A stretch of 42,645 bases of DNA from a virus, in IMG/VR virus record IMGVR_UViG_3300013133_000014, positions 1 through 42,645 of that record; one strand, written 5' to 3'. Position 1 is the stretch's first letter. The number at the start of each line of letters is the position of its first letter. This document shows positions 4,125-38,528 of the stretch, one piece after another. Below the pieces are notes generated by a model. That model ran no database searches. It was not told where the DNA came from and saw only the letters and a program-made list of their open reading frames with translations. A program made the translations under genes and the position numbers.

Positions 4125-6749
4125 TTAATGCCAACGGAAGTCATCAAAAAGGAATACGTGCTCTTCACCGTCGTAGGTGATGCGACCTTGAACGAGTGCA
4201 ACATATGCCCCGCCTGTACCTGTTTTTGTTACTTTGCAACCAAGCAAATAAAATGAACCAAACGTCCATAAATCCGGCATATCAGATACAGATGTTATAT
4301 TATTCCACGAGGTCCATGACAATTTATCAGGGGGGTCGGCTCCTGTTGTTGAAAGTGTGGCTGAAAAGGATGTGCCCCCCAAAACACCATTGTATATTGG
4401 TTGTAATGTCAATGTAGGTGTGAATGTTGTTTTTCCTGTGGCGTATGCACGTATTTCTACTTTTGATATATATCCCAAATCTAATGGCGGGCATGAATTG
4501 CCTGATATTGTTTGAATATCAGATGAACGCGTGGTATATGCATATGTTTGTAGATTATTGTATAACATCATTGGTGCACTCTGCATAAATTGGGTTGCAG
4601 GTGTTGTACCTGTAAAATAAAATGTTTTTGTATTAGTTCTCGAAGTGGCTGGATTTTCAGCTCTGACAAGATAGAAATCAAATAATCTGACGTTTGACCA
4701 ATCCATCGTTCCATGTGTAACGTCTGGGGACGAGAGGTCGATTTCAATATCATTCCATTCGTCTGCCGACCATGTAAATTCCCATGCAACATAATCCTGG
4801 TTGCTAGATTGTAGGAAAATCCAACGATTATCAAATTTATCAGCGGAGAGTAATGTATAAAATCGAAATGTTAGGTAGTTTGCGTCTAAAAGGCTAAATG
4901 ACCAACCCGGGTCATATGCAAGTTGTTCAATAAAATTACAAAACGCAACTCGTAAACACTGTCTTCCGTTTTTAATAGGTATCAATGACATATGTCCGCT
5001 AGACACCCAACCATTTAGAGAATCACATGAATTAATTTGATATGGGTCGATAGTACCAGAAATTGTTAATGATATCTCAGGTCCTTTGTCTTCATCAATA
5101 GTGAGGTCGGTTGGCGCAAGCCACACGTGCTGTGTGTTGCCATAGAGGTAGCGTGTACTTTCATTTGATGCAAAAGGTGGAGTTATAATATAACATTTTG
5201 GTGGTAAACACCAATGAATGCCACTCCCTGTAATTGTTCCATGATTGCAATAGCCAGAATCGTCTTGCACTGTTAAACCCTCTCCCTCATCCATTTCCCA
5301 ATGACCAACAAGGCCGGAGGTGGGCTGCCCTGACCTCTCGTAAAGAGTTAAAATTTCAGTGGCAGTTAACGCTCTGTTATAAATGCGCGCATCGCGCATA
5401 ATTCCTATAAAACTGTTCTTCTCGCCCGTGCCACTGCCTATACCTAATCTGACCGGGTTGCCGTCACTGGCTATAAGTGCACCAGTTGCAGTTGCACTAT
5501 CAGTTAGTACATTACTGCCATTTATATACAATTTTGCTGTGTGTGAAGTTTGGTCATATGACGCAGCAATATGAACCCACTCGCTGATAGGTAATTTTGT
5601 AGTTGTAAAACTCCAGCCATAACCAGAAGCTGTGGATATCATAAAACGGAAACATCTGTATTTGTTGCTAGCAGCGGTATGAAATATACAGAGACAGTAT
5701 GAAACACCTTGACTTGTGTCAGCAGTGCATTTTTTCCAAATAAATCCAGGATAAGCACTATATCCTGTCATCATTGTATCTGGCCGTATCCAACAGGAAA
5801 GCGTAACACCTGTTGTAAGCTGCAAGCTTGATGTTTCAGGAACGTTGACATAGCTGCCCCCTGTCCCATCAAATTGTAATCCACAATAATTTGTAATATT
5901 TGGGCAATATCCAGCGCCTTTATTCAGTTTATAATACCCAACAGGGTCGATTGGGATAGTTCCGTCGCTATAAATAGTTGTAATTTGTTCCGTGCTGAGA
6001 GTTGTGTCATATATTTTAATATAATCAATCGACCCTTTATACCATCTGTCACTACCACCTAAAGACCCAATAACAAAATCTCCACCCTCTTCGGTTGCAC
6101 CACAAGAAAAAGCAGTGTTTGTGCTAACACCAACGAGTGAACCATTAACATATCCTCGGCATGTATATCGGTCGGCTAAATTTGAATCATATGGACGAAT
6201 AATATGTGCTAATGTTATCCATTTATTGTCCCACGCAGAATTCCAATTGCATGTCGTGCTGGTGCTTTGTGCATTTGGATTATCATATCCATAAAATTCT
6301 ATAATAGATGGTGGTGTGGACGACACATACCTATATGGTGCGTTGAGCAAAAAGCTGTAGTAACGGCTATATACAGAGTTGTCGCTTGCTGCCCCTTGGT
6401 CGTATGTTTTAATTCGCGATATACCTGTAATACTATGCGAACCAGTCAGTCCAGAAATATATAATAAAGTGCCCGTTGTTGCCTCACCATCAAAAGAACT
6501 CACAACATCATTATATGTTATACAAATTCTTTTTGAGTTTTTTAAAGTTTCTTTTAAAGTTGTTAAATTGGCATATCTTGATGTTCCATAAAGGGAAAAA
6601 CCGAGCGTCACATCAGTGCTCGTTTGACCTGTTCTTTCGAGATATGGTATGCCTTCTGACGCCTGCTGAAAAATATTCCATTTATCCGCTGTATTTCGTG
6701 CATGCACTTGATACCCTGCAATCTCAAAATCATTTATACAATACGCCAT
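4125..6749 (-). CDS. Tail adhesin with LamG-type and carbohydrate-binding modules (874 aa)
   Basis: Probably a baseplate or tail-tip protein that binds host surface glycans. Residues 1-110 form a docking domain related to the start of the neighbouring 268-aa protein (CINDFEIAGYQV, later SLYGTSRYANL). Residues about 140-260 and 290-470 look like LamG/concanavalin-type beta-sandwich domains (typical LSCWIRPD, WVHIAASYD, AKLYINGS and DARIYNRALT stretches). Around 479-508 the start of a third LamG unit (GLVGHWEMDEGEG) breaks off, as if truncated. Residues about 570-695 resemble a CBM-like jelly roll, and 700-874 form another beta-rich domain ending FLFDDFRWH. The ATG at 6749 follows the previous stop by one base. 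Domain order is visible; sugar specificity is not. Confidence 0.8.
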   Translation of the reverse strand: MAYCINDFEIAGYQVHARNTADKWNIFQQASEGIPYLERTGQTSTDVTLGFSLYGTSRYANLTTLKETLKNSKRICITYNDVVSSFDGEATTGTLLYISGLTGSHSITGISRIKTYDQGAASDNSVYSRYYSFLLNAPYRYVSSTPPSIIEFYGYDNPNAQSTSTTCNWNSAWDNKWITLAHIIRPYDSNLADRYTCRGYVNGSLVGVSTNTAFSCGATEEGGDFVIGSLGGSDRWYKGSIDYIKIYDTTLSTEQITTIYSDGTIPIDPVGYYKLNKGAGYCPNITNYCGLQFDGTGGSYVNVPETSSLQLTTGVTLSCWIRPDTMMTGYSAYPGFIWKKCTADTSQGVSYCLCIFHTAASNKYRCFRFMISTASGYGWSFTTTKLPISEWVHIAASYDQTSHTAKLYINGSNVLTDSATATGALIASDGNPVRLGIGSGTGEKNSFIGIMRDARIYNRALTATEILTLYERSGQPTSGLVGHWEMDEGEGLTVQDDSGYCNHGTITGSGIHWCLPPKCYIITPPFASNESTRYLYGNTQHVWLAPTDLTIDEDKGPEISLTISGTIDPYQINSCDSLNGWVSSGHMSLIPIKNGRQCLRVAFCNFIEQLAYDPGWSFSLLDANYLTFRFYTLLSADKFDNRWIFLQSSNQDYVAWEFTWSADEWNDIEIDLSSPDVTHGTMDWSNVRLFDFYLVRAENPATSRTNTKTFYFTGTTPATQFMQSAPMMLYNNLQTYAYTTRSSDIQTISGNSCPPLDLGYISKVEIRAYATGKTTFTPTLTLQPIYNGVLGGTSFSATLSTTGADPPDKLSWTSWNNITSVSDMPDLWTFGSFYLLGCKVTKTGTGGAYVALVQGRITYDGEEHVFLFDDFRWH

Positions 6750-6750
6750 G

Positions 6751-7557
6751 TTACCACACCCTCATATCATCTATATATTGTGGGGTTGTTGTTGTAATAG
6801 ACGATATAATTCGTTTTGTGATTTTTGTTATATTTTCTAAGGAAGGGCTTCCCACAGTTCCTGCCGGCCCCTTCAATGTCAGATTTTCGTATGTCCATGT
6901 ATTTGCATTATATGTTGTATTCCAGTAAAAATAATTATTGGTAGCTGTTTCTAATATAACTCTAGATGCTGAGAAGGATGTTGATGGCAAAACACTTTGG
7001 AGCCAAAAGGACAAATATGTATTAACAGATAAGTCACATGGTTGTGTGGGCGTATAAGAGGCGTCAAATGTTGATGCGGACAATGTCATCGTTGTTTTTA
7101 TTGAATGCTGACCGTAATATGCCGTACTTAATGACAGACTAACACCAGTGGTGCCTGACCAATTTGTTAAAAAATCACAACTATGAATTATACGTTCATC
7201 AATTAACCCGCTTATACTACAGCGCAGTATATTATGTTCATCCTTAACGTTAAAACCAGTTGGCATAACCCACACAAATGTTTTATCCTCATCAACATAA
7301 GTATTTGAGCCTATACACGAAATCATTACAGTGTGTGAACTTTCGAGTTCTGCTCTAATACTCGATTCTAAATTAAAACGATTTGCACCGCGAAGAGACA
7401 TATCAACAACAATAGGTTGTGCACTACGAGCAGGTGAATTCACCACAGATTTTTTGTTATATATTTCATGTGCGGTGTTGACCCACGGCATGTTAATCTT
7501 CTCAGAGGATACAACCGTATTGGTTAGTTCAACATCATTTATATACCATCTTGACAT
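6751..7557 (-). CDS. Tail protein with docking domain and C-terminal carbohydrate-binding-like module (268 aa)
   Basis: Residues 1-115 are a paralogue of the first domain of the next (874-aa) protein: both start with an xINDxE motif and contain SLxGxxRxNL, suggesting a shared attachment fold, possibly distal-tail-like. Residues about 130-268 form a CBM-like beta-sandwich (HSIKTTMTL, YFYWNTT, ending YIDDMRVW). It is the shorter member of a pair encoded in tandem straight after the hub gene, with 2 bases between its ATG and the hub stop. Likely a baseplate component displaying a glycan-binding module; equally it could be the true distal tail protein. Confidence 0.7.
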   Translation of the reverse strand: MSRWYINDVELTNTVVSSEKINMPWVNTAHEIYNKKSVVNSPARSAQPIVVDMSLRGANRFNLESSIRAELESSHTVMISCIGSNTYVDEDKTFVWVMPTGFNVKDEHNILRCSISGLIDERIIHSCDFLTNWSGTTGVSLSLSTAYYGQHSIKTTMTLSASTFDASYTPTQPCDLSVNTYLSFWLQSVLPSTSFSASRVILETATNNYFYWNTTYNANTWTYENLTLKGPAGTVGSPSLENITKITKRIISSITTTTPQYIDDMRVW

Positions 7558-12650: not shown

Positions 12651-15600
12651 TTAACCACCACCCCAAGTAAACCCAGCACGCTTTGCTTCAGAAACTAATG
12701 CATCATGTACTATGCTAACTACTTCTTGTGCATCCGCTCTTTCACTAATAACAATATATGGTGCTAAAACAATACTATTACTCTGTCTAATGTCAGCTTC
12801 AGCCATACCTTTTGCAAGTGCGTCCCAAAATCCTTCACTTCCTATATTTTCTAATAAATCATCGATAACGCCTTGAAAATCTGGCAAAACTCTGTAAGCC
12901 ATTAACTGCATAAGAGCAAACATATTCGATTCAAATTGCTCTGGCAATGTAACACCATATTCTCGCATCGCTTTTGCGGATTGGATGAATGAATTAATTA
13001 GTTCAGTCATTTTAAAATATGACTGTATGCGAGCCCATTCCTCACCAAGCATTTGCCAACCTTCTGCAACGTTCTTAAAGTAGAATCCAGCTGACTCTAA
13101 TTCGGTGCTGTGTTCAACAAACGTGCTAATTGCATCGCTGAATCCACTTGCACCGCTGAGTACATCACGGAAGTCATTAGCCATTTCTTCGATAGTTTTG
13201 ACCACCTGTTCTTCTGTATCTTCAAAAAGTGTATCCCAAAAGTTTGGATTGTTTAAATTACCTATAAATCCGCTTATAATACTCATTAATCCGCCTGTTG
13301 CACCGCCAGCCATCTGCTGGATAAATGGCAAGAGTGTATTATACAGCTGACTTTGCATATCTAATATTTGTTTTTTTGTCGCATCATCAAAAGCGGACCC
13401 CATAATGTCCTCAGTAGTATAACCAGAAACATATTGTTCAGTTTCTTTTGCTATTTTACTAAGAGATTTTTCTGCCTGCACCATATATTCATATGCCAAA
13501 TTATTTGTCAATCCCGCCTCTTCATGAAACTTAATGAAGTTTCTTACTGCAGGTAGTTGTTGCTGCGCAGATATTGCGCGCTCGGTAGCACGTGTATCAT
13601 ATATAGGGATTTGCCTCTCGCCGACTTTATATTCTTGTTGCGCAGCAGTGGCAAGATTGCCAACAACATCCATTATTGTGCCAATAATTTGCAACGCCAT
13701 CCACATTTTTTGTATTTTCTTCCAATTCTCCCCAAGAGTTTCCCACTGGCCGGCTACGCCGCCGAAATAGAAGCCCGCATCGTCCAAACGAACGCCCGCG
13801 GCAACTAGTTGGTCTATAAATTCGCTAAGACGGTCAAATCCTGTTACCGCGCTAATTAAGTCGCCTGCCATATCATTAATTGTTTTTACGGCTTCTTTAA
13901 CAGTTTCTACAACTTCATCAGATTGCAAAACTGTAGTCCAAAAGTCTTTGTTGCTAAGATTGCCCTGAAGACCGGTAAATACATCAGTTATATCCGTAAC
14001 CATACCGCTCATAAAAGGCGTGATAGCTTCGCCTATTTGCACCAAGCCATTTTCAGCAGCTGTATTTAAACCAGTTGTATCAACACCCTCAATTTGTAAG
14101 TCTTTCATCGTTGAAAATACATCAATAAAAGTTTTAATCATATCAAGTGCTGCCCACTTGGCTTGAATTTCGGCCCATTTATCGCCTAATGTCTTCCACT
14201 GGCCTGCAACACCATTAAATGTAAACCCGGCTTCATCTAATGACTCACCACGTGACACCATTTTAGTTATTGCGTCACTTATTTGGGTAATATCGCCTAT
14301 TTTTGACCATGATTCGACAGCATCGGCAACTACTTGGGCATCAGCGGCCAATTGTTCTTCTGCAGTTAGAGCGACCTTTTCATTACTATCCACCATCGCA
14401 ATAATTCCATCTTCTGCTACATTTTGCAAAGCTAGCCAGTCTTTATTTTGACTCAACGCTTGGTTTATAAGGTAATTTTTAAAATCTTCTGACATGGTGC
14501 CAGCTGTTGTACCCTCCGCAGTTTTAAATAATTTTCCCAAAATGGATGTATCTTTACTTCCTTCAAACATATTAGCTACTTTTTCATATCCTTCAACTGT
14601 TAAATTTACTGTCCATTTATCCTTTGTCCATTTTACAAGTCCTAAAGGACCTTTAACACCGGTTGTTGTTTGAATAGCTTGATATTGGCTCGCACTAAGG
14701 TTCTTCCGAATTTTTTGAAATTCATCCCATGTTACATTTGTTACTGTAACCATCCCTTCGTTAATTGAATCTCCAAGCCCTGCTACAACATCATCTCTAA
14801 TTTCACCACTGCGCTTTTCAACATAATCCATCACGCCTTTTGTTGTTTCTGCAGCGGACCCCATCTTCTTTCCTGCAGTATCCCATGATGCTATTAATGC
14901 ATTACCAAATTCCTGACCAAAAATCATGAGAGTCAAAGCATCACGCATTGCTCTATCTGATTCACCCATCAACTTGCTCTGTACATCCATTATTAGGGTT
15001 AAATCACCCTCATGTATTTTTGTAATTTCTTCTGATGTATATTTATACGACTTCAATGCCATTTCAAAATCAGTTGTTCCTGTTAATTTTTCTGGGAACC
15101 ACCTGGTTGGTGATTGAATAAATCCTTGTTCACCTACATTCATATAACCAGTTTTAATAAGTGCCATCGCTTGTGATACACCAAATTCGCTTGTGATACC
15201 CGCCATTTGTTCAACTTCTCTTCTAATTGTTTCAATTACTGTCCCCTCTTTTACTAATTCAGTAACGAGCTGGCGAACTTTGCTAGGCATATCATCCAAT
15301 GCAGAACCCATATCATCAAGACTGCCCGTAAAATCTGTAGATGCAGTGGTGGCTTCCTGTGTTGCACTTGTGAGCATAATCATAGCAGCGGTCATTGCAC
15401 CAACCATCACAGCAATACCAGCAGCAGCAGCATAAGCAGATATACCAGCAGTTGCACCAGCTTCAGCAACGGCTAATTGCATGGTCGCTGCCGTCTTCGC
15501 TTGTATAAGTGTTGTTACAATAGGCAAAATTGTAGCGAGTGTTTGTAATGTTGTTGAAACAAATATTAATGCAGCACCAACTTCTCTCTGGCCTGCTGAC

Positions 15601-17231
15601 AAAGCATACATAGCAGCCGTCATGCCCACTATTGCAAACACTTGTGTAGCCATCGTCCATTTTTGAAGCGTTAGTTGTTGTGTTACTCCCGCAAGTGCTA
15701 TTTGTTCTCTCTTTAGTCCATTAATTTCACCATCAATTGCGGCTTGCCGTAATAATAATGTATTAATACTCTTTAAAGCAACATAATCCTCCTTAATTCT
15801 CTCTGCCTTTGATTGGCTGATAGCAGCCCCTTGTGCAAATATAGCCATGATTTCTGAGTCTGTCATGGTAATATTATTTTTCAGCCTTAACATTCTCAAA
15901 TCAAGAGCAACTCCATTCCGTTCTAATTGTAAGTTTAATATAGAGTAAGCAATTTTTTCTTCTTGAAGGCTAAGAGCGACTTTTTGTTCTTGCATTGCTA
16001 ATATTCGAGATGAAGCCGCAGCTATAATGTATTTGGAAATGAGAAGAGAAAGAAATATAATAACAGGATAGATGTATTGGCCAAGTGATTGAAACATTTT
16101 TGATAGTGTATCTAATGCAGGGGCGAGACTTGAAACCATTCCTGTCATAGCGGCAGCAAATCTGTTTTGCATATTTATCATTGTGGTCGAAACGAGGTCA
16201 TCCATTTTGCTTGCTGCTTCTTCCATAGTGCCAGTTGCAAATATACTTTCCATTTGTGTTTGCTGCCAAATTTCTAATTGTCGTGATAATACTTCATAAC
16301 CTTGGGCGGACCTAATATTTGTAAATATAGACGCGATAGTTGCTTGTCGTTGTTCTTCTGTTTTCGATGCTAAAACACTCTGTAAATCTGCCACTATGTC
16401 AATAGCATTTCGCATTTTACCAAATGAATTAAAAACCGCAATACCCAACTCTTTTATTTTCCGCTGTGCAACAGGGTCTGTTAATTGTTGGAAGAAGTTA
16501 ACAACACGAGTTGAACCCTCCTCAAACGCTGGGCCACCAAAGCCGCCACGTGATACAGCAACTAATGCTGCAAATGCAGTTTCCATACCTTGCCCAGCAA
16601 GAGAAGCGGTTGCCACTACGCGACCCATAACTTGGTTTAATTGTTCATATTCAAAAATACCTAGCTTAACAGCGAGAAATTGAACATCATAAATATGTGT
16701 TAAATCCTCAAGTGTTTTACCGTAAGCATACATTGTACCTATGCCAGCTTGAACTGCTGTTCGTAAATCAGTTGCACCCGCTGTTGCTGCACGCGATGCA
16801 GCATTAAGAATGAATAATGCTTTTTCACCTTCAAATCCAGCTGAAACTATATCATACAAACCTGTCGCGAGTTGTCCTAACGTTAAAGGTGTTTTTTCAC
16901 CCAACCTGATAATAGCATCGGTATATCTTTGCAACTCTTGTTGACCCACGAGCAATAAACTATTAACACGCGCCATTTCCTTTTGAAATTCAATTGCGGC
17001 CCCGATACCTTCCCCAATTTGCTGGGTAAACATACCAAAACCACGATATAAAAGTAAACCTTTAAAAATAGCGAGCGTACGCAATGAGTGATGGCCCAAT
17101 TGCTGCATACTTGCGCCCATCTGATTTATATTTACTACACCAGATTGATACAACGATGTAATTTCAGACTGCGCGCGCGTAATGCCTATGGTATTCGCTC
17201 TTATAAGTAAATCATACTTTCCCTGGGCCAT
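12651..17231 (-). CDS. Tail tape measure protein (1,526 aa)
   Basis: Sets tail length and is carried inside the tail tube. The N-terminal 350 residues match the TP901-type tape-measure core (FQKEMARVN, GEKTPLTLGQLATGLYDIVSAG, AASRAATAGATDL, QAGIGTMYAYG). Hydrophobic segments near 385-405, 535-575 and 600-620 could insert in membrane at DNA entry. The C-terminal third holds three copies of a unit ending in (D/S)AGFxFxxVAxxWxxLGexWaxIQ, spaced by FW(T/D) motifs. Length implies a long tail, about 230 nm at 0.15 nm per residue (rule-of-thumb inference). The ATG at 17231 lies within the frameshifted end of the upstream chaperone gene and has no strong ribosome-binding site, so translation may be coupled. 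Confidence 0.93.
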   Translation of the reverse strand: MAQGKYDLLIRANTIGITRAQSEITSLYQSGVVNINQMGASMQQLGHHSLRTLAIFKGLLLYRGFGMFTQQIGEGIGAAIEFQKEMARVNSLLLVGQQELQRYTDAIIRLGEKTPLTLGQLATGLYDIVSAGFEGEKALFILNAASRAATAGATDLRTAVQAGIGTMYAYGKTLEDLTHIYDVQFLAVKLGIFEYEQLNQVMGRVVATASLAGQGMETAFAALVAVSRGGFGGPAFEEGSTRVVNFFQQLTDPVAQRKIKELGIAVFNSFGKMRNAIDIVADLQSVLASKTEEQRQATIASIFTNIRSAQGYEVLSRQLEIWQQTQMESIFATGTMEEAASKMDDLVSTTMINMQNRFAAAMTGMVSSLAPALDTLSKMFQSLGQYIYPVIIFLSLLISKYIIAAASSRILAMQEQKVALSLQEEKIAYSILNLQLERNGVALDLRMLRLKNNITMTDSEIMAIFAQGAAISQSKAERIKEDYVALKSINTLLLRQAAIDGEINGLKREQIALAGVTQQLTLQKWTMATQVFAIVGMTAAMYALSAGQREVGAALIFVSTTLQTLATILPIVTTLIQAKTAATMQLAVAEAGATAGISAYAAAAGIAVMVGAMTAAMIMLTSATQEATTASTDFTGSLDDMGSALDDMPSKVRQLVTELVKEGTVIETIRREVEQMAGITSEFGVSQAMALIKTGYMNVGEQGFIQSPTRWFPEKLTGTTDFEMALKSYKYTSEEITKIHEGDLTLIMDVQSKLMGESDRAMRDALTLMIFGQEFGNALIASWDTAGKKMGSAAETTKGVMDYVEKRSGEIRDDVVAGLGDSINEGMVTVTNVTWDEFQKIRKNLSASQYQAIQTTTGVKGPLGLVKWTKDKWTVNLTVEGYEKVANMFEGSKDTSILGKLFKTAEGTTAGTMSEDFKNYLINQALSQNKDWLALQNVAEDGIIAMVDSNEKVALTAEEQLAADAQVVADAVESWSKIGDITQISDAITKMVSRGESLDEAGFTFNGVAGQWKTLGDKWAEIQAKWAALDMIKTFIDVFSTMKDLQIEGVDTTGLNTAAENGLVQIGEAITPFMSGMVTDITDVFTGLQGNLSNKDFWTTVLQSDEVVETVKEAVKTINDMAGDLISAVTGFDRLSEFIDQLVAAGVRLDDAGFYFGGVAGQWETLGENWKKIQKMWMALQIIGTIMDVVGNLATAAQQEYKVGERQIPIYDTRATERAISAQQQLPAVRNFIKFHEEAGLTNNLAYEYMVQAEKSLSKIAKETEQYVSGYTTEDIMGSAFDDATKKQILDMQSQLYNTLLPFIQQMAGGATGGLMSIISGFIGNLNNPNFWDTLFEDTEEQVVKTIEEMANDFRDVLSGASGFSDAISTFVEHSTELESAGFYFKNVAEGWQMLGEEWARIQSYFKMTELINSFIQSAKAMREYGVTLPEQFESNMFALMQLMAYRVLPDFQGVIDDLLENIGSEGFWDALAKGMAEADIRQSNSIVLAPYIVISERADAQEVVSIVHDALVSEAKRAGFTWGGG

Positions 17232-18050
17232 CTTTTAACCACTGCTTACGTTTTTCTAACATTTCCTTTCTTATATTTTCTGGCACATCATCTGGTTCTT
17301 TTGATTTACTTATCCAAGGATTAAAAAGAAGTGCATCATCGATTAGTTGTCGCACGTATTCCATGTCAAACGAAATTAGTATGTATTCCAACGACCAATG
17401 ATAGTTATAAGCGACGCAATGAATAAGTGTCCTTATTTCATCAGGCCGCTTTGCTAGTTTTTTTTCAGGTCTTCTTGAGATGGAGGAGCTGTTTCTGGTA
17501 CAGCTGCTTGTTGCATTTTAGATATAGAGTGCTGCGTAAATTGAGCCAACTCAGCATCAGAAATTAACGACTTCAAATCATCAATTTCAAACGGCATCTT
17601 CGGCTTTTCATTTTTCCTGCGAGCTTCTTCATATATATATGCTTTTATCATATAATATGCTTCTAATATACTGCGTCGCAAGAAAAAAGGTGCGGTTTCA
17701 ATAGAAACTCTTGCTGTCTTTTCCACAGCTGCTAAAAGTTTTGTTGATAACTCGTCAACAAGTACTTTCACTTGCACTTTATCTATTTTGTCCCAATCTT
17801 TTTTATAAAAGGTCATCACTGTTAACACGCTAGTAACCTGCTGTTCGCTAGGTGTTGTAGTTGCTAAAAATTCGGAAAGAACATTAAGTTGTAAACGAAT
17901 TTGCGATTCTTCTTGAACTGATGTCAAGAATGGCACAAACTCATCTACATGTTCTTTCGTTAATTCAGCCACTGCTAGTGAGCCTTCTATCTTCATTTCA
18001 GGAAGCTCTACTTCTTTTCCGTCCAAGAACCATTGTGCTTTAAATTTCAT
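17212..18050 (-). CDS. Tail assembly chaperone, long form made by -1 frameshift (gpGT-like, about 279 aa)
   Basis: The stretch 17232-17453 would otherwise be an empty gap in a tightly packed operon. If ribosomes slip back one base on A AAA AAC (17463-17457), reading continues CTA GCA AAG CGG CCT and stays open for 81 codons to a TGA at 17214-17212. The extension begins LAKRPDEIRTLIHCVAYNYH and ends KRKQWLKDGPGKV. It overlaps the tape-measure start by 20 bases, exactly as in lambda-like G/GT systems. The extension is coding-like (balanced composition, no early stop). Frameshifting itself is inferred from position, slippery site and open frame, not demonstrated. Confidence 0.8.
17454..18050 (-). 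CDS. Tail assembly chaperone, short form (gpG-like, 198 aa)
   Basis: Sits between the tail tube and tape-measure genes, the standard place of the tail assembly chaperone that coats the tape measure during tail building. Helix-rich, with a conserved-looking FFLRRSILEAYYMIKAYIYEEA segment and a Gln/Pro-rich tail. It ends EDLKKN at a run of eight A followed by CTAG, which forms an A-AAA-AAC slippery heptamer immediately before the stop. Start ATG at 18050, 8 bases after the tail tube stop, with a weak AGG site. Confidence 0.75.
   Translation of the reverse strand: MKFKAQWFLDGKEVELPEMKIEGSLAVAELTKEHVDEFVPFLTSVQEESQIRLQLNVLSEFLATTTPSEQQVTSVLTVMTFYKKDWDKIDKVQVKVLVDELSTKLLAAVEKTARVSIETAPFFLRRSILEAYYMIKAYIYEEARRKNEKPKMPFEIDDLKSLISDAELAQFTQHSISKMQQAAVPETAPPSQEDLKKN
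17457..17463 (-). promoter_or_regulatory. -1 ribosomal frameshift slippery site A AAA AAC
   Basis: On the minus strand, eight consecutive A followed by C, with the zero-frame codons AAA AAA AAC TAG. The heptamer has the X XXY YYZ form with the stop directly after it. This is the classic arrangement for programmed -1 slippage in tail chaperone genes. Confidence 0.8.
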
Positions 18051-18058
18051 AAGCCTGA

Positions 18059-19258
18059 TTAAGCAGGTGCAGTAGTTGCGTCACAATATATAATTTGTGC
18101 TGTTTTTGATGCTGCTATTTTATATTTTGCTGTCCAAGTTAATGTTTCTTTAATTCTTCCCTCAGCGATAGGTTCTGATGAATCAGTCCAAACCACATCA
18201 TATGCATCTACTTCTAGATAACATGCTGTGTTTTGTGTACCGGTCCATTTATAGGTCAAATCAAACGCTGTCGGGTCGGATATTGCTGCTGTATCACCGC
18301 GCCATGCTGTTAACTCATCATCATTTTCAAACCACTGTACAACAGTACCAGTCATCCTGAACGTACCACTGCGTACATCTGCGGTATAATAATCACCGAG
18401 TCTACGGTCAGTAACAGGATTACGATTAATTGTAACATTACATGATTCTACAAACTTCTTTGGTACGGCTGCTTTTAAAACAACACAATGTCTGAAGTGC
18501 ATTCTCTTTGGGTCTGGTGACTGTGCTGGAGGATTCCAACATTCAGCTGTGAATGTTTTACTTGTTCCACCAATTTCTTGTATACCAAAACCACCAGTAA
18601 ATGTGACTCTTGAAGTCCCCATACCACCAGCGGGTTGGTCAAGTGTTAAACTATCAACAGACATTCCACCGTATACTTGTAATGATACACGGTTACCACG
18701 CATTATCATGACTGTTAATGTATCGACTGTTTCGCCTGGTGTCATTGTGTGTGTACCACCACCGACGGTTGTTGATGTAGAAACTCCCATTGCGGCGGCT
18801 AAAACTAAATGTAGAGCTGGTGAAGATTCACCAATAAATAACCCTAAATCCCCGCCCGTGTCAACTGTTAATGGCACATGTGATGTCTTTTCCCATTCTT
18901 GGAGACATTCTGTATCATTCCAGTTAACCGTTTCTTTTAAACTTTCTGACTCTAAGCATAAATAAGCTAACGGTTTGGGAATTATTGCAACTTGGTCATT
19001 TACTGCAGCACCAGCAACCGTTGAAGCAACAACATAAATATTTGATGTTGCATTAGATGAAGTAATTTTTAAAATACTCCCCTCTGCCGTGCCTGAGATT
19101 AATACAAGATTTCCGTTTGCATATACAGAATCTTTTATATAATCATCAGCATCCTCCATCGTATATGTTGTACCACTTATGGTTGTTATTTTATCTAAAT
19201 ACGCTCTTACAGTAGTTAAACCAATTTCAGAATATCTTCCCATACTTGCTGACGTCAT
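18059..19258 (-). CDS. Major tail tube protein (399 aa)
   Basis: Forms the hexameric rings of the tail tube. It starts MTSASMGRYSEIGLTT with a strong GAGGTGA site, and the C-terminal half has the beta-rich character of siphovirus tube proteins (FRMTGTVVQWFENDDELTAW, RIKETLTWTAKYKI). It is followed directly by the chaperone and tape-measure genes, which fixes the assignment. At 399 residues it is longer than simple tube proteins; residues about 35-95 (around GTAEGSILKITSS) look like an inserted small beta domain. It is preceded by its own promoter-like region with an inverted repeat, consistent with high expression. Confidence 0.82.
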   Translation of the reverse strand: MTSASMGRYSEIGLTTVRAYLDKITTISGTTYTMEDADDYIKDSVYANGNLVLISGTAEGSILKITSSNATSNIYVVASTVAGAAVNDQVAIIPKPLAYLCLESESLKETVNWNDTECLQEWEKTSHVPLTVDTGGDLGLFIGESSPALHLVLAAAMGVSTSTTVGGGTHTMTPGETVDTLTVMIMRGNRVSLQVYGGMSVDSLTLDQPAGGMGTSRVTFTGGFGIQEIGGTSKTFTAECWNPPAQSPDPKRMHFRHCVVLKAAVPKKFVESCNVTINRNPVTDRRLGDYYTADVRSGTFRMTGTVVQWFENDDELTAWRGDTAAISDPTAFDLTYKWTGTQNTACYLEVDAYDVVWTDSSEPIAEGRIKETLTWTAKYKIAASKTAQIIYCDATTAPA

Positions 19259-21410: not shown

Positions 21411-24400
21411 TTATGAATACTTGATTTCATTACTTCCAATTCTTGTTGTTGCGCATACAATATCGCCTATGCGACCAAATGTAATATCGTTACTACCTAT
21501 TCTTGTAAATGTTGGATATATGCGGAACCATTGGGTTGCTGTCTTAAACGGCGCAATTGCATCATATAATGCGAATGAATCTGTAAATGATTTAATATAC
21601 CCAGCATTCGGGGCGACGGATGTTGTAATTATTGTTACATCTTCGAATAGACGGGTAAGTGCTCTTGTTATACTATCTGTTGGTTCAATTATCTCCCAAA
21701 GTAATAAGCCAGGTATTACATCTAAATTATCATACATAGCTAAATTATCGGTGAATATTTTACCGAAAATAACGGTAACACCATCAAATAGTTCAGCAAC
21801 ATTCTCCTCAACAACTACCAGCTCCGCTGTTAATTCCTCGTATAACGCAATTAAATCGCTGTAAACGCGCGATAATGCTCTTGTGAATGATAATATATCA
21901 ACTACACCCAAATCATCGTTTAAATCGCGTTTAAAGCGTTTTACCACTAACATTTGGTCATAAAGTGAGGTGTCATCATATAAATCATGAATATTTGCGG
22001 CGGAGGTGCTAAACATATCAACTAACGTGAGTTGTTCCATAAGACCGCGTGTAAATGTTTTTCTAAGTGCAATTTCATCTATTAATTGAATACTTTCAAT
22101 ATATGTTGAAGCACAATAAAGAATTGCATCAACAACATCGTCAAGAGTTACTACATCCACTAATAGGTGCCCGTGTGACCATACACGACCATAATTATCA
22201 AGTATTTCTACGTACTCTTTCAATATGCAACTAACTTTTGAAACGCGTTCATCTAATGGATATATTTGGTCTTCAAACACGCGTGACCAATGCCAAACCA
22301 TTGCATCATCCAAAGCAGTGGTATCTTTAAAGGTGCGTTCTAATGAAAATGTTAGCTCATCATATGGCACAATGCCCTCGTATAATTGTCTTATACCGAC
22401 TGTTACTAAATCTAATACATCTAATAATGTAAGTTGTCCATCAAATGCTCGTAACAAAGTTTGTTTAAGAGCAACAATATCAGTTAGTGCAACTGTTTCG
22501 AAGAATGTTGCAAACGATTTTGAAAGCGTTGTAAATGAATCAGCAATTAACACAGCATCTGTTAATGAATGTAGGTGAGTCCATATACGGTTATACTGGT
22601 CTAAAAGTTCTGTGTAATCTTTCAGAATATAAGCAACTTTTGAAACGCGTTCATCTACTGGGTATAATTGGTCTTCGAATGTACGCTTGGTATATTTTAT
22701 CAAAACATCATTCAATGTTGTTACATCTGCAATTGGACGACTTATAGCAGGCACTAACGTATCATAAATTGTAATATTGTCTTGTAGTATTCTAATATGG
22801 CGAATTACTCTATCAAATATATCAGATAAAGAAGTAGAATCGAGTAGTGTGAAATACTTAATTAAACCTCTTGATAGCGTATCATATAAAGTTGTAACAT
22901 CATGAAGAGTTATTAACTGTATTTTAATGGTTGAAATAACGTCTATTATTGATAGGTTGTCTACGTACACACGCAAACTTGCCCATGTATGTTTATAAGC
23001 ATCGAGTAATTGCGTGTATTCTTTTAATATGTAATCTATTTGTGTTACGCGTTCATCTAATGGATATATTTGGTCCTCAAATGCACGTTTGGTATATTTT
23101 GTTAAGATATCACTTAATGTCGTTACATCAACAATCGGTCGACTTACTGCGGGTGCTAACAAATCATTAAGTGTGGTGCTGTCTTGTAATGTTCTAACAT
23201 AACGAACTAATCTGCTAAATACATCAGATAATGAAGAGGAATCGAATAATGTAAGATATTTAGTTAAGCCTCTTGATAGACTATCATATAGCGTTGTAAC
23301 ATCGTAAAGGGCTATTAATTGCACCTTAAGAATCGAGATAATATCTGTTATTGATAAAACATCAGTGTATATTCGTAGGCTTGCCCATGCACGCCTATAT
23401 TCATCAAACAATTGTGTGTATTCTTTTAATATGTACTCTATCTTTGTTACACGTTCGTCAAACGGATATAATTGGTCTTCAAACGTACGGGAGTGTTTAC
23501 GTACTATTTTATCATTCAAGGTTGTCAATTCAATGAACGGACGCTCAACGGTCCGCATCAATGATTCTGTTAATGTTATATAGTCTTGTAATTTTCTCGT
23601 GCTATCAAACTTTACATTGAATATATCTGCTAAAGTTGTTTGGTCTGTGAATAAGCGTAATAATGTTAAGTTGCGTGTGAAGATATCACTCACTAAAACT
23701 ACTTCAGGCAACATGCGCAGTTGTACTTTAAGTATAGACATTAAATCTGTTAATGATAAATCATCAACAAACAGGTGTAGGTGAATCCATGCATGCTGAT
23801 ATGCACCAAACAATTCTGTATAATCTTTTAGTATGTATTCTATTTTTGCAACTCTTTCGTCAAGCGGATATAGTTGGTCTTCTAATATATATGAAATTTG
23901 TTTTACTAATGTGTCAGTTAATACAACCGCTTCAGTAGACACATGCCCAATTATTGGTTTAATATAATCGTGCAAAGTTAATATGTCTTCGAAAGCAATT
24001 GGGCGGTGTGTACCAGTATAAAATGCGTCTGTTAATCCACATACTTCATTGAAAACAGCTGATGTTACCCATATGCGCATAAATTCATCGTACAATATTG
24101 CACTATTATCTATACGCATTGTTCCATGCAATACAGCAATACAAGAATCATCTAACGATATCCCCTCATAGAAGTATCTCGCAAAATTCCATACTGTTTG
24201 TAGTCCGAATTCATCAAATAGTAATATACCACCAGGTTTTATGACATCTAATCTGTAGTAGAGTTTAAAGTCGTCGTACAATTCAATAGGATATATCATT
24301 CCACCGATGTGTCTATAATCAGTTAATGTAACATTTTCATACAGCCATTTATCATAAACATTTATTTTGCCATCCGTTACTAAAATACCATCCTCAAACG

Positions 24401-27400
24401 GAACTGCAAGAGATTTTGTTACAGTATCTGCTAAAATAAATAATTCGTAAACAGATTTCTGCAATGCTTTTACTATAATGTCGTAGGTAGAAATACTTTC
24501 GGCAAACACGGGTGCGCTCGCAAGATATGCACTACATATTAAAGATATACTTTCATTAAACAAACCCAATTTTGCTAACGACCGTAAAAACAAATCCGAT
24601 AATTGTATACTCTCTATTGGGGCACGGTTAATATTTAACTTTAAATTCAAAACATCAATACAACCTACATTATCTGCAAGATTTTTTGTTGTATGCCATA
24701 TTTTCGTGTATACATCATCGAGTAGATGTGCTTCATTAAATATCAAATCTGCTTTATAAATCTCGCCGTCACTTAAAACAACACAATCCCCGTGTACGCG
24801 CGCAACAGATTTAACTAATTGGTCGGATAACACAATAGATTCGGTTGTTATTTTTTGTAATAACTTACCAAATAAATCATATAATACTAAGGATTCAAAC
24901 AATGAAAATAATGTCATTTTTGACAATATATCTGATAATACGATATTTTCATCTGACTTAAGAACTTTTGTAAATAAACGAGTTACATTATCAGCCACCA
25001 CCACATTTTCATAGTATTGCCGCGCTAAAGCGCGAATTAATGAGTCGTATGATGCTATTTGTTCGGTAAAGATACGCAACAACAACGCAGTCCTTGTAGT
25101 TAAATCGTTTAAAGTCAGTTTGTCGTACAAATTACCTGCTGGTGCACCATATTCTTCATCCGTAGGCACAATATTTTCATATAATATACGCGTTGAAACA
25201 GACTTTCTTGATAATACATCAGCGCAAGCAACACTTTCTATTAATTGTTTGGTGTTATTCCATATTTTTGAATATGTGTCGCTTAGTAGGGGTATGTCGC
25301 TAAGAATAAAATTGATTTTATGTATTTTTACGTCATATAATGAAACACTTTCTGTTAGAGTAAGAATTTTTGTAAATGAACGAGCCACATTATCAGCGAG
25401 AGAAATGAATTCAATACACTGTCTTCTTAAAGACCTTGCTAAAGAGTCGGCGGGCGATGTTTGTTCACTAAAAGTACGAGTGAATAAAACATTTCTTGCA
25501 ATTAAATCACTGGGCGTTAATTGGTCGCAGAATATACCGGATGGTGCACTATATTCTTCATCGGTTGCAGTGAGGGAATCATTAAAGATGTGTCGTATTG
25601 ATTTTATTACAGCGTCAGAGGTTGATGTCTGTTCAATATATGCTCTTTGTATATATAACGTTAAATCATCAGAAAGTGTACATGATTCATACAATGACCG
25701 CACTTCATACTGGGTTTTTACATCAGTTACGTTAATTATATCTGATAATAATCGCGAAAATGTTACTTTTCTGCCTAAGATGCTATAACATGCAATATAA
25801 TCTTCAAACCAATATGTTAAAATGCCATATTCGCCATCTGTTAAATCGAATGAATCCTTTAATGTTCTCGACAAATTTAAAACAACGCTATCTGTTAACG
25901 TCGCAACATCACCAAATATTCGTGTTTGCGTTTTTATCAAACCGTCACTTAAAGTTGTCGCCTCTGCAAATATACAACTTAATTTATTTGTTCGCGAATC
26001 ATATAACGTCAGCGTTTCAGTATATACAAGCTTCACGGCAGTAACCAAATCATTTAACGTTGTTGCTTCTTGATAGTTTTTACTTATTACTGTTGTTAAT
26101 ACATCATTTAAAGCCGTGCTCTCATTGCATGCCCTCTTCGGCAGGAATGTTCTTGAAAGTGTGTCTGTGAGTGTTGGGTATTCATTAAATCCAGCGGTGA
26201 TTATGTCCTGTCTTCCATCTACTAATGCAATTGATTCTCTGATTATACGTGATATTGAATAAACAAACGTATCATTGAGTGTTGTTAAATCTTGAAATCC
26301 TCTATTCAAGCCATTTATTTCGTCATCAGTTGCTGCACATGAATCGCGGTAGGTGCGGTTTAAAGTGAATGTTAAATCGTCAGATAAAGCGGTTTCTTCA
26401 CTAAATAATCTTGAACTCAATTTGTTTGTACTACAAATATCAAACAATTCAATGATTTCGATATATGCTGGCTTAGTAGCCACAACTTTATCATCGAGTG
26501 AAAACGTTTCTCCTCCATTATAATTCAAATTTTTGCTCAATTGGATATTATCAATCAATTCTACTAATTCGGTTGCATTTAACGGACGCATTCCCGTAAC
26601 GGTATCGGATAAGGAGAGGTTGTTGTTAATATCGAGTCTGCTAAATCGGAATGATATATTATCATACAATGTGACACTTTCGTTTTGTGTATAATCCCCG
26701 CACAACTCGAACATCATGTCAACGTTTGTTGCATTGCTCCAAGTTGCAATAAACCAAGTTAATTGGTTGCCGCCCGAGTAAGATGGGAGAGTTTTATCCC
26801 CGCGCCATTTTAAATATCCTGTATTTTGTGCACTTAATGTAAGAGCATATTTTGTATCTGCTTTTAGCGTATATGGTGTAAGGTCAATTGCTTTCCACAC
26901 CGCTGTTGATGTGAGATTGGTTCCCATTGATGTTCCGGATGTTAAAGCAGAACCGGTTGGAAGGCCGCTACCATCCGTATCATATAATGTTGCAGTTATG
27001 GTTCCTGGGTCTCCGCTGGAGGTAGTAAGCAATTTAAGTCTTACTCTTGTTAATCTTGTCGTGAATGATGTGGTGAAAGATTGCCCGTATTTACGGAATG
27101 TATCAAACAAATATCCATCATCATCATTTGAAGTATAACTATCATACACCTCTGTGTGTTTGCCTTTTCCGTATATTTTAAACATAGCATCCGCAGTTGT
27201 TTCTGATGTCCATGAAGTACCACTGTTGGTGGAAACACACATGTTGCCACCGCTATAAGAGGGTGACGATTTATCATCTCTCCAATTAACATAATTAGCA
27301 GCACTTCCACTCGTTGCTTTCAGAATCAGCGCATATTTTGCATCAGCCTCAAGCGTAGCTGCTGACATTGTGAAATCATACCAACCTCCAGGAGAGATAA

Positions 27401-27659
27401 ATGAAAAATTATTTCCATTATATGTACCAGTAGATAAATCAGAACCAGTGGGCAGACCACTACCATCTGTTGATGTAATAACTGCTGTTACTGTGCCAGG
27501 CGACCCAAACCCACTTCTCCATGCTTTTATACTTATTCCTGTAATCGTTGTGGTTGCATCTAATCCAACATTACCTAGTGTGAATGTCTGTGCGCGCCAC
27601 TTCGTTCCATAGACATCTTTGTTATCATCATCATTAGAAGTGTAATATTCAAATAGCAC
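21411..27659 (-). CDS. Giant tail fibre B: two beta-sandwich domains plus repeat fibre (2,082 aa)
   Basis: GTG start shares its G with the stop of fibre A (TAGTG). Residues 1-165 and 170-330 are two copies of the same beta-sandwich found five times in the hub protein (AQTFTLGNVG, DGSGLPTGSDL, YALIL, YSGGN). From about 345 to 2035 the protein is built from degenerate 18-20 residue repeats of the form R-x-[FLY]-x-[ED]-x-x-x-L-x-D-x-[FLI]-x-[RK]. Five copies of a longer 134-residue unit, marked by a [FL]EDQ(L/I)YPxDERV motif, occur near its C-terminal half. The protein ends with a short non-repeat tail (TRIGSNDITFGRIG). Likely a long fibre for host attachment; the fold of the repeat is unknown to me. 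Confidence 0.8.
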   Translation of the reverse strand: MLFEYYTSNDDDNKDVYGTKWRAQTFTLGNVGLDATTTITGISIKAWRSGFGSPGTVTAVITSTDGSGLPTGSDLSTGTYNGNNFSFISPGGWYDFTMSAATLEADAKYALILKATSGSAANYVNWRDDKSSPSYSGGNMCVSTNSGTSWTSETTADAMFKIYGKGKHTEVYDSYTSNDDDGYLFDTFRKYGQSFTTSFTTRLTRVRLKLLTTSSGDPGTITATLYDTDGSGLPTGSALTSGTSMGTNLTSTAVWKAIDLTPYTLKADTKYALTLSAQNTGYLKWRGDKTLPSYSGGNQLTWFIATWSNATNVDMMFELCGDYTQNESVTLYDNISFRFSRLDINNNLSLSDTVTGMRPLNATELVELIDNIQLSKNLNYNGGETFSLDDKVVATKPAYIEIIELFDICSTNKLSSRLFSEETALSDDLTFTLNRTYRDSCAATDDEINGLNRGFQDLTTLNDTFVYSISRIIRESIALVDGRQDIITAGFNEYPTLTDTLSRTFLPKRACNESTALNDVLTTVISKNYQEATTLNDLVTAVKLVYTETLTLYDSRTNKLSCIFAEATTLSDGLIKTQTRIFGDVATLTDSVVLNLSRTLKDSFDLTDGEYGILTYWFEDYIACYSILGRKVTFSRLLSDIINVTDVKTQYEVRSLYESCTLSDDLTLYIQRAYIEQTSTSDAVIKSIRHIFNDSLTATDEEYSAPSGIFCDQLTPSDLIARNVLFTRTFSEQTSPADSLARSLRRQCIEFISLADNVARSFTKILTLTESVSLYDVKIHKINFILSDIPLLSDTYSKIWNNTKQLIESVACADVLSRKSVSTRILYENIVPTDEEYGAPAGNLYDKLTLNDLTTRTALLLRIFTEQIASYDSLIRALARQYYENVVVADNVTRLFTKVLKSDENIVLSDILSKMTLFSLFESLVLYDLFGKLLQKITTESIVLSDQLVKSVARVHGDCVVLSDGEIYKADLIFNEAHLLDDVYTKIWHTTKNLADNVGCIDVLNLKLNINRAPIESIQLSDLFLRSLAKLGLFNESISLICSAYLASAPVFAESISTYDIIVKALQKSVYELFILADTVTKSLAVPFEDGILVTDGKINVYDKWLYENVTLTDYRHIGGMIYPIELYDDFKLYYRLDVIKPGGILLFDEFGLQTVWNFARYFYEGISLDDSCIAVLHGTMRIDNSAILYDEFMRIWVTSAVFNEVCGLTDAFYTGTHRPIAFEDILTLHDYIKPIIGHVSTEAVVLTDTLVKQISYILEDQLYPLDERVAKIEYILKDYTELFGAYQHAWIHLHLFVDDLSLTDLMSILKVQLRMLPEVVLVSDIFTRNLTLLRLFTDQTTLADIFNVKFDSTRKLQDYITLTESLMRTVERPFIELTTLNDKIVRKHSRTFEDQLYPFDERVTKIEYILKEYTQLFDEYRRAWASLRIYTDVLSITDIISILKVQLIALYDVTTLYDSLSRGLTKYLTLFDSSSLSDVFSRLVRYVRTLQDSTTLNDLLAPAVSRPIVDVTTLSDILTKYTKRAFEDQIYPLDERVTQIDYILKEYTQLLDAYKHTWASLRVYVDNLSIIDVISTIKIQLITLHDVTTLYDTLSRGLIKYFTLLDSTSLSDIFDRVIRHIRILQDNITIYDTLVPAISRPIADVTTLNDVLIKYTKRTFEDQLYPVDERVSKVAYILKDYTELLDQYNRIWTHLHSLTDAVLIADSFTTLSKSFATFFETVALTDIVALKQTLLRAFDGQLTLLDVLDLVTVGIRQLYEGIVPYDELTFSLERTFKDTTALDDAMVWHWSRVFEDQIYPLDERVSKVSCILKEYVEILDNYGRVWSHGHLLVDVVTLDDVVDAILYCASTYIESIQLIDEIALRKTFTRGLMEQLTLVDMFSTSAANIHDLYDDTSLYDQMLVVKRFKRDLNDDLGVVDILSFTRALSRVYSDLIALYEELTAELVVVEENVAELFDGVTVIFGKIFTDNLAMYDNLDVIPGLLLWEIIEPTDSITRALTRLFEDVTIITTSVAPNAGYIKSFTDSFALYDAIAPFKTATQWFRIYPTFTRIGSNDITFGRIGDIVCATTRIGSNEIKYS
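21560..26630 (-). repeat. Coding tandem repeats (18-20 codons) in fibre B
   Basis: About 5 kb of diverged repeats with a period of roughly 54-60 bases. Each unit carries an Asp/Glu, a T/S/V-L-x-D core and a basic residue. Divergence between units is high, so the array is old or under diversifying selection. Confidence 0.85.
22240..23870 (-). repeat. Five-copy higher-order repeat with an exact 402-bp period
   Basis: The conserved DERV-encoding segment starts at plus-strand positions 22243, 22645, 23047, 23449 and 23851, each exactly 402 bases (134 codons) apart. The flanking units (ILK(E/D)YTxLxxxY, LYDxLxRGL, ISRPIxDVTTLxD) recur in register. Constant spacing indicates segmental duplication of a block of about seven basic units. 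Confidence 0.85.
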
Positions 27660-30600
27660 TAGCCCATCACCACCCTATATTCACCGAATTCATTCAACGT
27701 CAATGTTAATTTAGCTGCTGCCAACGGTTCGCATATGTCATATGCAGTAATATTTTCATCAAATGGTCTTGAAATAAGCCAAGCCAGCAAGTCGGATAAT
27801 GTTTGTGACTCAAGATATAATTGGGTGCCTTTTTTTGTATTGGTGTTGATATCGTATAAAGTAATAGGGTCGTCAAATGAAGTTAAGTGCAGCCAAGAGC
27901 GCGTATATATATCGCTTAACGATACGCTATCCACAAACAATTTTTGTGCATCTTTGCTGAATTTGTCACCCAAAATTATATTCTCTATATAATTCTTGTT
28001 TAAGCTCTTTAAATATGAAGAAGCATCTGAACAATCTGTGTTTTCTGCAAAGTTTCTAATAACCTGAATAATGCGGTTTACAACATCGTTTGGTGTTAAT
28101 AAATCATCATACACTCTGTTTAATGCCCATAAACGCTGGTATACATCAAGCAACTCAATCATTTCCTCTAAAGTAAGGTAATAATCAGATATGCGCTCAT
28201 CTGCTAATATTACTGAATCCTTCAATAGCTTCATAAACTGCAAAAATCGACCATCCGTAATTGTAACAACATCGTTATATATTCTATTCAGCAAACGAGC
28301 CAATTTATCTTCTAACAGTATTTGTTCCTCTTCAATGCGTGCAAATATCCATATCCGTGTTGCTGTATCTGTTAGTATTACAGATTCTGGCAAGTTGCGC
28401 GTAATATTAAATATTCTTGCAAATAAGTCATTAATATTGGTTATTTCATTCAATGTGCGGACGAAAGTAACTATCCGACCTATACTATCATTAAGAGTTG
28501 TATTTTCGGTATAGCTTCGTGTGAATTGCTTTAACCAACTCGCAACATCTGTGAGTGCTGTGTCATCCGTATAAAGTTTTGTTAGCGCCCACAACCTCGC
28601 AAACATGTCGTTTAATAATAATATTTCTGATTGCAGCAAAACTAACTTTCCAGATGTTGTAAATATATCAGTTAATGGGATATTTTCGCCATACTCGCGT
28701 CTGAAAATCCATTTTTTGTTTATTAAATCAATTAGCTCATTATAATCGCCAAGTATATAAGTTAGCGCGCCGTATTCACCATCAATAAGTGCTACTTGCT
28801 CTATTAAAGTGCGTGATAGCGTTCTTGACATTAAATCAGGTAAAGTAATGATTTCGGTATATACACGCAAGAATATGTACGTAAATATATCAGTTAGAGC
28901 GGCATTTTCATATAATATTCTGCTTACACTTTTAATAAACGAGTCAGTTAATGATGTGCTATCATAATAAATCTTAAAAGATGCAAAAAGTTTGCTAAAA
29001 ACATCATTTAGTGCGATTAATTCATAAAATCCGCGTATATTCGTTATTAACCTATTAAATGCATCATTTATAGTTATATTCTCATTTAAACCGCGCGAAA
29101 TTGCATTTAAACGCGCAAAATCATCAGAAAGCAATATATTATCTGTAAATCCTTTAATAAATGCTTTAAACGCAATTAAAATATCATTTAAAACGATGTT
29201 TTCAGTATATAACCGCGAAAATACCCACATTTTATTTATAATATCGCCCAAAATTGTGGTTTCGCCACCCTCAAACATTAATTTTCCTGATGTTGCGAGT
29301 GTATCATTTAGAGTTATAGTATCCGCAACAATTCTATTTAAGACCCAAGAACGGCTAAATAAATCATACAATCCAAGTGGTTCCGCAATTTGGATAATTA
29401 AACCTTCATATTCGCCATCATATAACGTCACCGTATCAGATAACGGTCTTTGTATTGTTTTTATAAATGCATCACTTAGTGTTAAGGAATTAAATAAAAC
29501 GCGATTAACATTCCTTACAAACATATCATAAGTGGTTGTTGCTTCAAATAATATCCTTGTTTCAATCTTTTGCATTGCGTCATACGTCGTTATTACTTCT
29601 TGAATTGAACGTAACGCTGTTGATATTCTATTGATTACATCAACCAACACTACGTTTTCAGTAAATAACCTCGCGCCCGCAACAGTGAGGGTATCACCAA
29701 ATGTCATACTATCATAATACGTTCGTATAAATGCAGGCAATCTCGTGTAACTATCAGAAAGCGTTATTTGGTCTGTAAATACAACTACCGGTAATTTATA
29801 TTCACCATCTGTTAACGTTGTTTGGTCCTGCAGTGTTCTGGTTATACTTCTTACCATCGCGTCATTAAACACAATTGTTTCACCGAACGGACGTTGCAAA
29901 ATCCATGTTAAAATATCATACGTAGTGAAGGTATCATATATCGAACGTTGTAATTGTTTAATAAACGTGTCGGACGAGGTAACACTATCAGTATATGCCC
30001 TACTCAATATAACAGACCGTATTAAACTATCGTATAATACAACGCTTTCATCAAGCCGCTTTGCACCCTTTGAAACATAATCCATTTGGTCGTATAAAAC
30101 TGATAAATCTATAAACAAATGCAAGTGTGTCCAGACCCGCACAAATAAATCAGCCGCAGAAATTTGGTCGGACAAACTTCTAACAAAATTAATAACTCTG
30201 CTACAAACATCCCAACCCGTAATTATGTCCGTAAAACTTCTAGTAAATAACTTTGATAAAATGATATTATCATATGTCGTTATGAAATCATTATACGTTC
30301 TGTTAAGAGGCCAAACACGGCTAAGCAAATCAATCAGGTTAAATGCTTCCTCCAACGTTAGATAATAATTGGTAATTTGTTCGTCAGTAAGAGTAACTGA
30401 TTCTTTTCTCACAACTACCATTTGTTTTGTTAAACCATCTGTAGTGCTCAACGACTCTGCAAATATTTTATTAACTACTAAAACTAAAATATCAACAGCA
30501 GATAAACTCTCCGTGTAAATGCGCGAGTATTGCCAAACACGACCAAATAAATCAGAAGTTGTTAAACTATTCTCATAGCTCCGCGTAAACAACCATTGCT

Positions 30601-33784: not shown

Positions 33785-33803
33785 CCTTACCAATACCCCA
33801 CGT

Positions 33804-37333: not shown

Positions 37334-38527
37334 TTATGCACCAATCAAAAAGAAATTACGAATATGCTGAATTAATAAATCTTCATGCTCAAAGTCATGC
37401 TCCCATATAACTAATGTTTCATATCCCTGTTCTGCAAAGTATCGGGCTCGATATTCGTATGTTAGTTCCTGTTTTATTTCACGCTCTGGAAAATGTATAG
37501 GACATGCATGCCAATAGCATCCAAAAACTTCAATTACCTTTTTTTGCTCCGGAAAAACAAAATCTGGTATTAATTTTCCAACTTGCTTTTTAATATAAAA
37601 ATACTCGGGAAACTCTTCATATAAAACGTAACTAATTATATCTTCCAGAACACTCTCGGGCCTGTATAAATGCCCACGCTCATACCATTCTGCACGGCAG
37701 TTAGTACATAATGATATGTTTTGACTATCATCCCCATCATCCTTGATGCCATATACATGACACGCCTTATATTGCCCACAAACTTCACACAATTCTTTTG
37801 GCTGAAGATGCTTTTTAATCAGCGCTTTATTATGCAAATGATAAATTTTTTTTCGTGTTTGTTCTACTACCGCTTTTGGAAAAGGCTTATCTAGTTTATC
37901 AAAACACTCATCACAAAGAAAGAAAGTATTATCTTTCCTCGGATATCTACCAACAAAATATATTTTTACACCTATTTTGCCGCACTGCATACATGATGTT
38001 TTTGCTACATCTACTTCGTTATATTGTTTATCAAATAATGGCAAGAGATGAAGTCGCCTTTCTTTTGCAAAAATCTTTTTTAATATTTCATTTAAATGTT
38101 TTTCCCGCGCGGCATCTACGATAGCACACACTTCTTCATATGATAATAATGATTTTTTACCGAATTTAATATGCAATTTTTTAATTCCGTCTGGCGTTAA
38201 ATGTTTACCATTCTTAAATTCTGCTTTTAGGGACTGCGACCACCCGTCATCCATCCCCAAAATATCACATAATGTTAAACAATTATCAATACCAACAACT
38301 TGCAAAGAGTTAAAATATTTATTCTCCATCAATGTTGAATTAATACCGTATTTGAAAAGTTGATTCTTTATTTCGTTTAAAATTTCTAAATCACCATCTA
38401 TCTCATAATACGGCATCGGCCGTATCCCGTATTTTACATCATTTCTCTTAGAAAATGTAACACCAGCAAAACCCTCGCTGCCTAAATCTAATGTCCAAGA
38501 AGCAGGCTTCTTTTCCTTTTCAGCCAT
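37334..38527 (-). CDS. Free-standing composite homing endonuclease: LAGLIDADG-like, two zinc fingers, Vsr-like nuclease (397 aa)
   Basis: ATG at 38527 lies one base after the protease stop (TGA-A-ATG); an in-frame TTG further upstream is less likely. Residues 10-90: a degenerate LAGLIDADG-type domain (WTLDLGSEGFAGV, then PMPYYEIDGD and LQVVGIDNC). Residues 179-208 and 247-277: two CxxC...CxxC zinc modules. Residues 319-385: a Vsr-like PD-(D/E)xK-type nuclease, with PDFVFPEQKKVIEVFGCYWH, CPIHF and YETLVIWEHD, resembling the EDxHD homing nucleases (I-Bth0305I group). It splits the usual protease-scaffold gene order, as expected for a selfish insertion. It would cut a related genome lacking the gene. 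Target site unknown. Confidence 0.8.
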   Translation of the reverse strand: MAEKEKKPASWTLDLGSEGFAGVTFSKRNDVKYGIRPMPYYEIDGDLEILNEIKNQLFKYGINSTLMENKYFNSLQVVGIDNCLTLCDILGMDDGWSQSLKAEFKNGKHLTPDGIKKLHIKFGKKSLLSYEEVCAIVDAAREKHLNEILKKIFAKERRLHLLPLFDKQYNEVDVAKTSCMQCGKIGVKIYFVGRYPRKDNTFFLCDECFDKLDKPFPKAVVEQTRKKIYHLHNKALIKKHLQPKELCEVCGQYKACHVYGIKDDGDDSQNISLCTNCRAEWYERGHLYRPESVLEDIISYVLYEEFPEYFYIKKQVGKLIPDFVFPEQKKVIEVFGCYWHACPIHFPEREIKQELTYEYRARYFAEQGYETLVIWEHDFEHEDLLIQHIRNFFLIGA

Positions 38528-38528
38528 T

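Follow-up and report, generated by a model that had tools for sequence, protein, structure and literature searches.

Does the tail assembly chaperone gene of this virus end at its own stop codon, or do some ribosomes slip back by one base and continue into the gap before the tape measure gene? The question is raised by the 42,645 nucleotides of IMG/VR record IMGVR_UViG_3300013133_000014 (the window), in which a slippery heptamer directly precedes the chaperone stop codon. The answer we propose is that the locus very probably encodes a gpG/gpGT-type chaperone pair that relies on programmed -1 ribosomal frameshifting, because its position, the heptamer with its adjacent stop, the start-less coding ORF in the -1 frame and a strong predicted stem-loop all fit this reading.

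The slip site and its stem-loop

The genes of the locus are all on the minus strand, in the order tail tube, chaperone pair, tape measure. The tail tube protein, encoded by the next gene upstream (18059..19258), was recognised by its match to Phage_tube_2 (PF18906, E 1.3e-13), and the tape measure protein (12651..17231) by its matches to PhageMin_Tail (PF10145, E 4.5e-28) and to phrog_991; between them stands the 0-frame, gpG-like chaperone of 198 amino acids (18050..17454). According to Xu, Hendrix and Duda 2004, as relayed by PMC5009743 and PMC7911831, this is where the frameshifted chaperone pair sits in tailed viruses. The 198-residue protein itself gave no family match in Pfam, PHROGs and NCBIfam and no match in a search against the sequences of solved structures, and its structure model was too poor for use (pLDDT 53); low sequence similarity is usual for tail assembly chaperones (PMC5009743).

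The 3' end of the chaperone ORF reads CTG AAA AAA AAC TAG and contains a run of eight A's (window positions 17458-17465), at the 3' end of which is found the heptamer A_AAA_AAC (17463..17457, minus strand). The 0-frame stop TAG (17456..17454) adjoins the heptamer on its 3' side. This ending had been described in an earlier, sequence-only reading of the window, with the correct coordinates and counts. Among the 43 strong in-frame heptamers present in the genes of the window, that of the chaperone is the only one to adjoin a stop codon.

Downstream of the heptamer, RNA folding predicts a stem-loop of 18 bp closed by a 4-base loop (17451..17409, minus strand), separated from the heptamer by a spacer of 5 nt (UAGCA); the heptamer, the stop and the stem of this cassette all lie within about 55 nt. 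The energy of the structure is -18.1 kcal/mol, whereas dinucleotide shuffles average -7.2 (z -5.1), none of the 200 being as stable. When a frame of 44 bases was slid along the site, stability reached its maximum at the 5-nt spacing, and 44-base stretches of equal stability make up 0.06% of the whole minus strand, at three other places. The 43 strong in-frame heptamers offer a further comparison, since such a stem follows the chaperone heptamer alone (-17.8, against -12.0 for the next). At -1 frameshift sites, the stimulatory RNA structure is located 5-9 nt downstream of the heptamer (PMC8211752), a range into which the predicted stem falls. We therefore regard this stem-loop, missed by the sequence-only reading, as the predicted stimulator of the site.

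The -1 frame beyond the stop

Between a TAA at 17520 and the TGA at 17214..17212, the -1 frame contains 101 codons free of stops, 81 of which follow the slip and form, with the TGA, the putative gpT-like extension (17212..17457, minus strand). This frame crosses the whole gap of 222 bases between the chaperone TAG and the ATG of the tape measure gene (17231), and overlaps the latter gene by 20 bases, which agrees with the 81 codons and the stop inside the tape measure start reported earlier. The first ATG, GTG or TTG of the frame is the TTG at 17391, located 22 codons after the slip; the possible starts, this TTG and the ATG at 17364, would leave 59 and 50 codons, respectively.

By two measures, the extension is more than a chance open frame. 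In the two wrong frames of the genome's other genes, stops occur at a frequency of 0.093 per codon (about one every 11 codons), so that an open run of 81 codons has a probability of about 4e-4, and among the 1546 wrong-frame runs 3 attained this length. On a codon-usage score trained on the other genes of the window, real genes span 0.9 to more than 27; over the gap, the -1 frame reached +5.6, near the lower limit of that span. The two other frames of the gap scored below 0, and the mean for wrong frames of real genes is strongly negative, at about -20. The -1 frame is the only frame of the gap to score positively against both background frames.

A single-sequence AF2 model of the extension (83 aa) predicts a helical segment made of five helices (pLDDT 72), and no meaningful match to it was found among viral models or the top-ranked PDB chains. 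The extension had no chaperone family match in Pfam, PHROGs and NCBIfam. Its alignment to gpT-type segments, suggested by the sequence-only reading as a check, brought no support, an unselected pairwise test against the other ORFs that precede tape measure genes being no better than chance. A profile built from five hand-picked segments had scored well (0 of 2000 shuffles); it was dropped because the segments had been chosen by eye and the unselected test remained at chance level.

Proposed mechanism and its alternatives

The run of eight A's lends itself to another explanation, in which the fusion would arise from slippage of the RNA polymerase, yielding an mRNA with nine A's, a mechanism that some genes do use on A-runs of comparable length. 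Such slippage needs neither a stem-loop at the spacing of ribosomal frameshift sites nor the frame of the heptamer and its adjacent stop, all of which are found here and fit slippage of the ribosome, and we consider it improbable; the topic of polymerase slippage on A-runs is reviewed in PMC5009743. It is hardly credible that a single gene of about 280 codons was interrupted by an indel introduced into the same run during sequencing or assembly: the homopolymer of eight bases is known from a single metagenomic contig, but a random indel would predict neither a 0-frame stop placed exactly behind a canonical heptamer, as it is in the haloarchaeal virus HCTV-2, nor a stem at the canonical spacing.

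The -1 ORF could also be a separate gene translated from an internal start, be it the TTG at 17391, the ATG at 17364 or a non-standard codon. Candidate starts are indeed present and the tape measure start is close behind. However, neither the TTG nor the ATG is preceded by a clear Shine-Dalgarno-like motif, while GGTG or GAGG stands before many other genes of the window, and the first part of the ORF, devoid of a start, belongs to the frame that is coding-like over the gap, which makes this explanation very improbable.

For programmed ribosomal frameshifting, we infer the slippage, its rate and the roles of both products as follows. Most ribosomes would read AAA AAC and terminate at the adjacent UAG, thereby releasing the 198-aa protein. 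The stem-loop, positioned 5 nt downstream at the entry of the mRNA channel, would hold a minority of the ribosomes at the slip site, where re-pairing one base back would shift A_AAA_AAC to AAA_AAA and allow 81 more codons to be read. The resulting product would be a fusion of about 280 aa with the predicted junction peptide ...EDLKKKLAKRPDE... On the model of lambda (PMC5009743), the short form would coat the tape measure protein, the long form, made rarely, would recruit the tail-tube subunits, and both forms, again as in lambda, would be gone before the virion matures.

The candidate -1 site is well formed, and a frameshift of this kind is ordinary for a tailed virus; it is consistent with the view that the gpG/gpGT design is common to bacterial and archaeal tailed viruses. 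Its added value lies in the strong stem-loop and in the probable non-halophile host.

Known frameshift systems, host and relatives

The G/GT pair of lambda slips on G_GGA_AAG. The locus of the window resembles it by its position, by the -1 direction and by the predicted combination of a short product with a rare extended one, and differs from it by the heptamer A_AAA_AAC with an adjacent stop, which agrees with the earlier proposal of a lambda-like arrangement with a different heptamer; position, heptamer and stop, -1 ORF and stem-loop all support it. Among the systems compared, the closest in design is HCTV-2 (KC292028, genes 40/41), an archaeal tailed virus in which the order tube, chaperone, tape measure is the same, A_AAA_AAC is directly followed by the 0-frame stop (TGA instead of the TAG of the window) and a -1 extension is annotated in the record as a fused product. 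The same heptamer has been reported for HCTV-2 (PMC5009743). Its chaperone gene (24176-24652) has the heptamer and stop at its end, and some 8 bases further on a small hairpin (GCCGUUAGGAGCGGC) starts. HCTV-2 is, on the other hand, a GC-rich halophile virus whose extension counts about 164 codons instead of 81 and has no detectable sequence similarity to that of the window. HCTV-2, which shares the heptamer with its adjoining stop and has a hairpin as well as an annotated fusion, provides an archaeal precedent, and -1 frameshifting has been proposed earlier for HVTV-1, HCTV-1, -2 and -5 and Hardycor1 (PMC5009743, PMC7911831), the last being an archaeal siphovirus with a different heptamer, G_GGA_AAT (PMC7911831).

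The ORFs that precede the tape measure gene were also compared in TP901-1 and in 22 records with a distant tape measure, several of them near-duplicates. In TP901-1 (ORFs 43/44), for which two chaperone genes are annotated, the tape measure is distantly related (23% identity) and is likewise preceded by an ORF that overlaps in the -1 frame, but the heptamer is G_GGA_AAG, no strong stem occurs at the same spacing and the host is bacterial. In the distant tape-measure relative L024, A_AAA_AAA is accompanied by an overlapping -1 ORF that stops where the tape measure gene begins. In the remaining records, the overlap was in the -1 or the +1 frame, or no signal stood out clearly.

No close relatives of the chaperone, tube and tape measure were found in IMG/VR, nor of the chaperone, tube and portal among GenBank phages; a viral scan with a tape-measure alignment reached only distant loci (23-33% identity), and scans of genome contigs with the terminase and the ribonucleotide reductase gave no match. 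Searches with the portal, capsid and terminase led to three related contigs, L002 (the same as L004/L005), L003 and L006, about 57-63% identical to the window in these three proteins. All three end before the tail genes, and no relative locus covering the slip site was found.

These relatives provide an indirect indication of the host. The window carries no tRNA gene, but 20-22 tRNA genes are clustered upstream of the terminase in L005 (4565-8175) and L006 (1742-4619). In their tRNA-Tyr genes, which are 72-73 bases long, the variable arm is short and a C1-G72 pair is present; tRNA-Thr has U73 and tRNA-Gly A73, none of the 42 genes encodes CCA, and the anticodon loop of the L005 tRNA-Cys (6728-6880, minus strand) is interrupted by a 79-base intron. 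Such identity traits are archaeal, the bacterial tRNA-Tyr having a long variable arm. Since the related contigs carry archaeal-type tRNA clusters, the host of the virus is probably archaeal, a conclusion founded on the traits of the relatives' tRNAs. L005 and L006 come from IMG 3300002052, a sulfate-methane transition zone of White Oak River sediment, and in this type of sediment layer Archaea and Chloroflexi are dominant (PMC4411801). The GGTG or GAGG ribosome-binding motifs found before many genes of the window are compatible with an archaeal host without being decisive. No host genome or spacer match was obtained for the window, and its terminase, with a similarity of 27% to those of Streptomyces and other bacterial phages, is too distant to indicate a host.

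It is fairly likely that the window belongs to a lineage of tailed viruses, so far undescribed, that infects uncultured sediment archaea and whose chaperone -1 site (A_AAA_AAC, stop, 5-nt spacer, 18-bp stem) would work on non-halophilic archaeal ribosomes. Outside the halophiles, one cellular case of -1 frameshifting has been proven by experiment in Archaea (PMC8211752). If our reading is true, archaeal -1 frameshifting would extend beyond the haloviruses and this single proven Saccharolobus gene, and the locus would offer a clean, compact and testable -1 cassette from a virus that probably infects archaea other than halophiles. The sequence-only reading had seen in it a useful example should the host be archaeal: such a host is indeed probable, but the example is not the first, haloviruses having been proposed earlier.

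Several other features of the window and its relatives were recorded. Between the head and tail genes, two proteins of more than 2000 aa (21411-27659 and 27659-33793, minus strand), which consist of short repeats of the 'LTDSFSR' type, are likely fibre or surface proteins. Two probable inteins are located at 2-2227 and 41532-42644 (minus strand). One lies in a class II-like ribonucleotide reductase and combines LAGLIDADG and intein-splicing domains; the other, at the edge of the terminase large subunit, has a weak C-terminal intein match, and the terminases of the relatives are without it. A 405-aa protein (37334-38551, minus strand) has a weak match to Vsr-like endonucleases near its C-terminus and is found at the same place in the relatives, in some as a shorter ORF. 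In L003 (2-1378) and L002 (1182-2627), a ParB-type HTH is fused to a DpdA/TGT-like domain, as identified by a domain search with L003, which suggests 7-deazaguanine modification of the DNA in this virus lineage. A sulfotransferase-like gene, recognised by a Pfam match in L002, is present shortly upstream of the terminase in L002 (7132-7866), L003 (1878-2558) and L006 (5199-5900).
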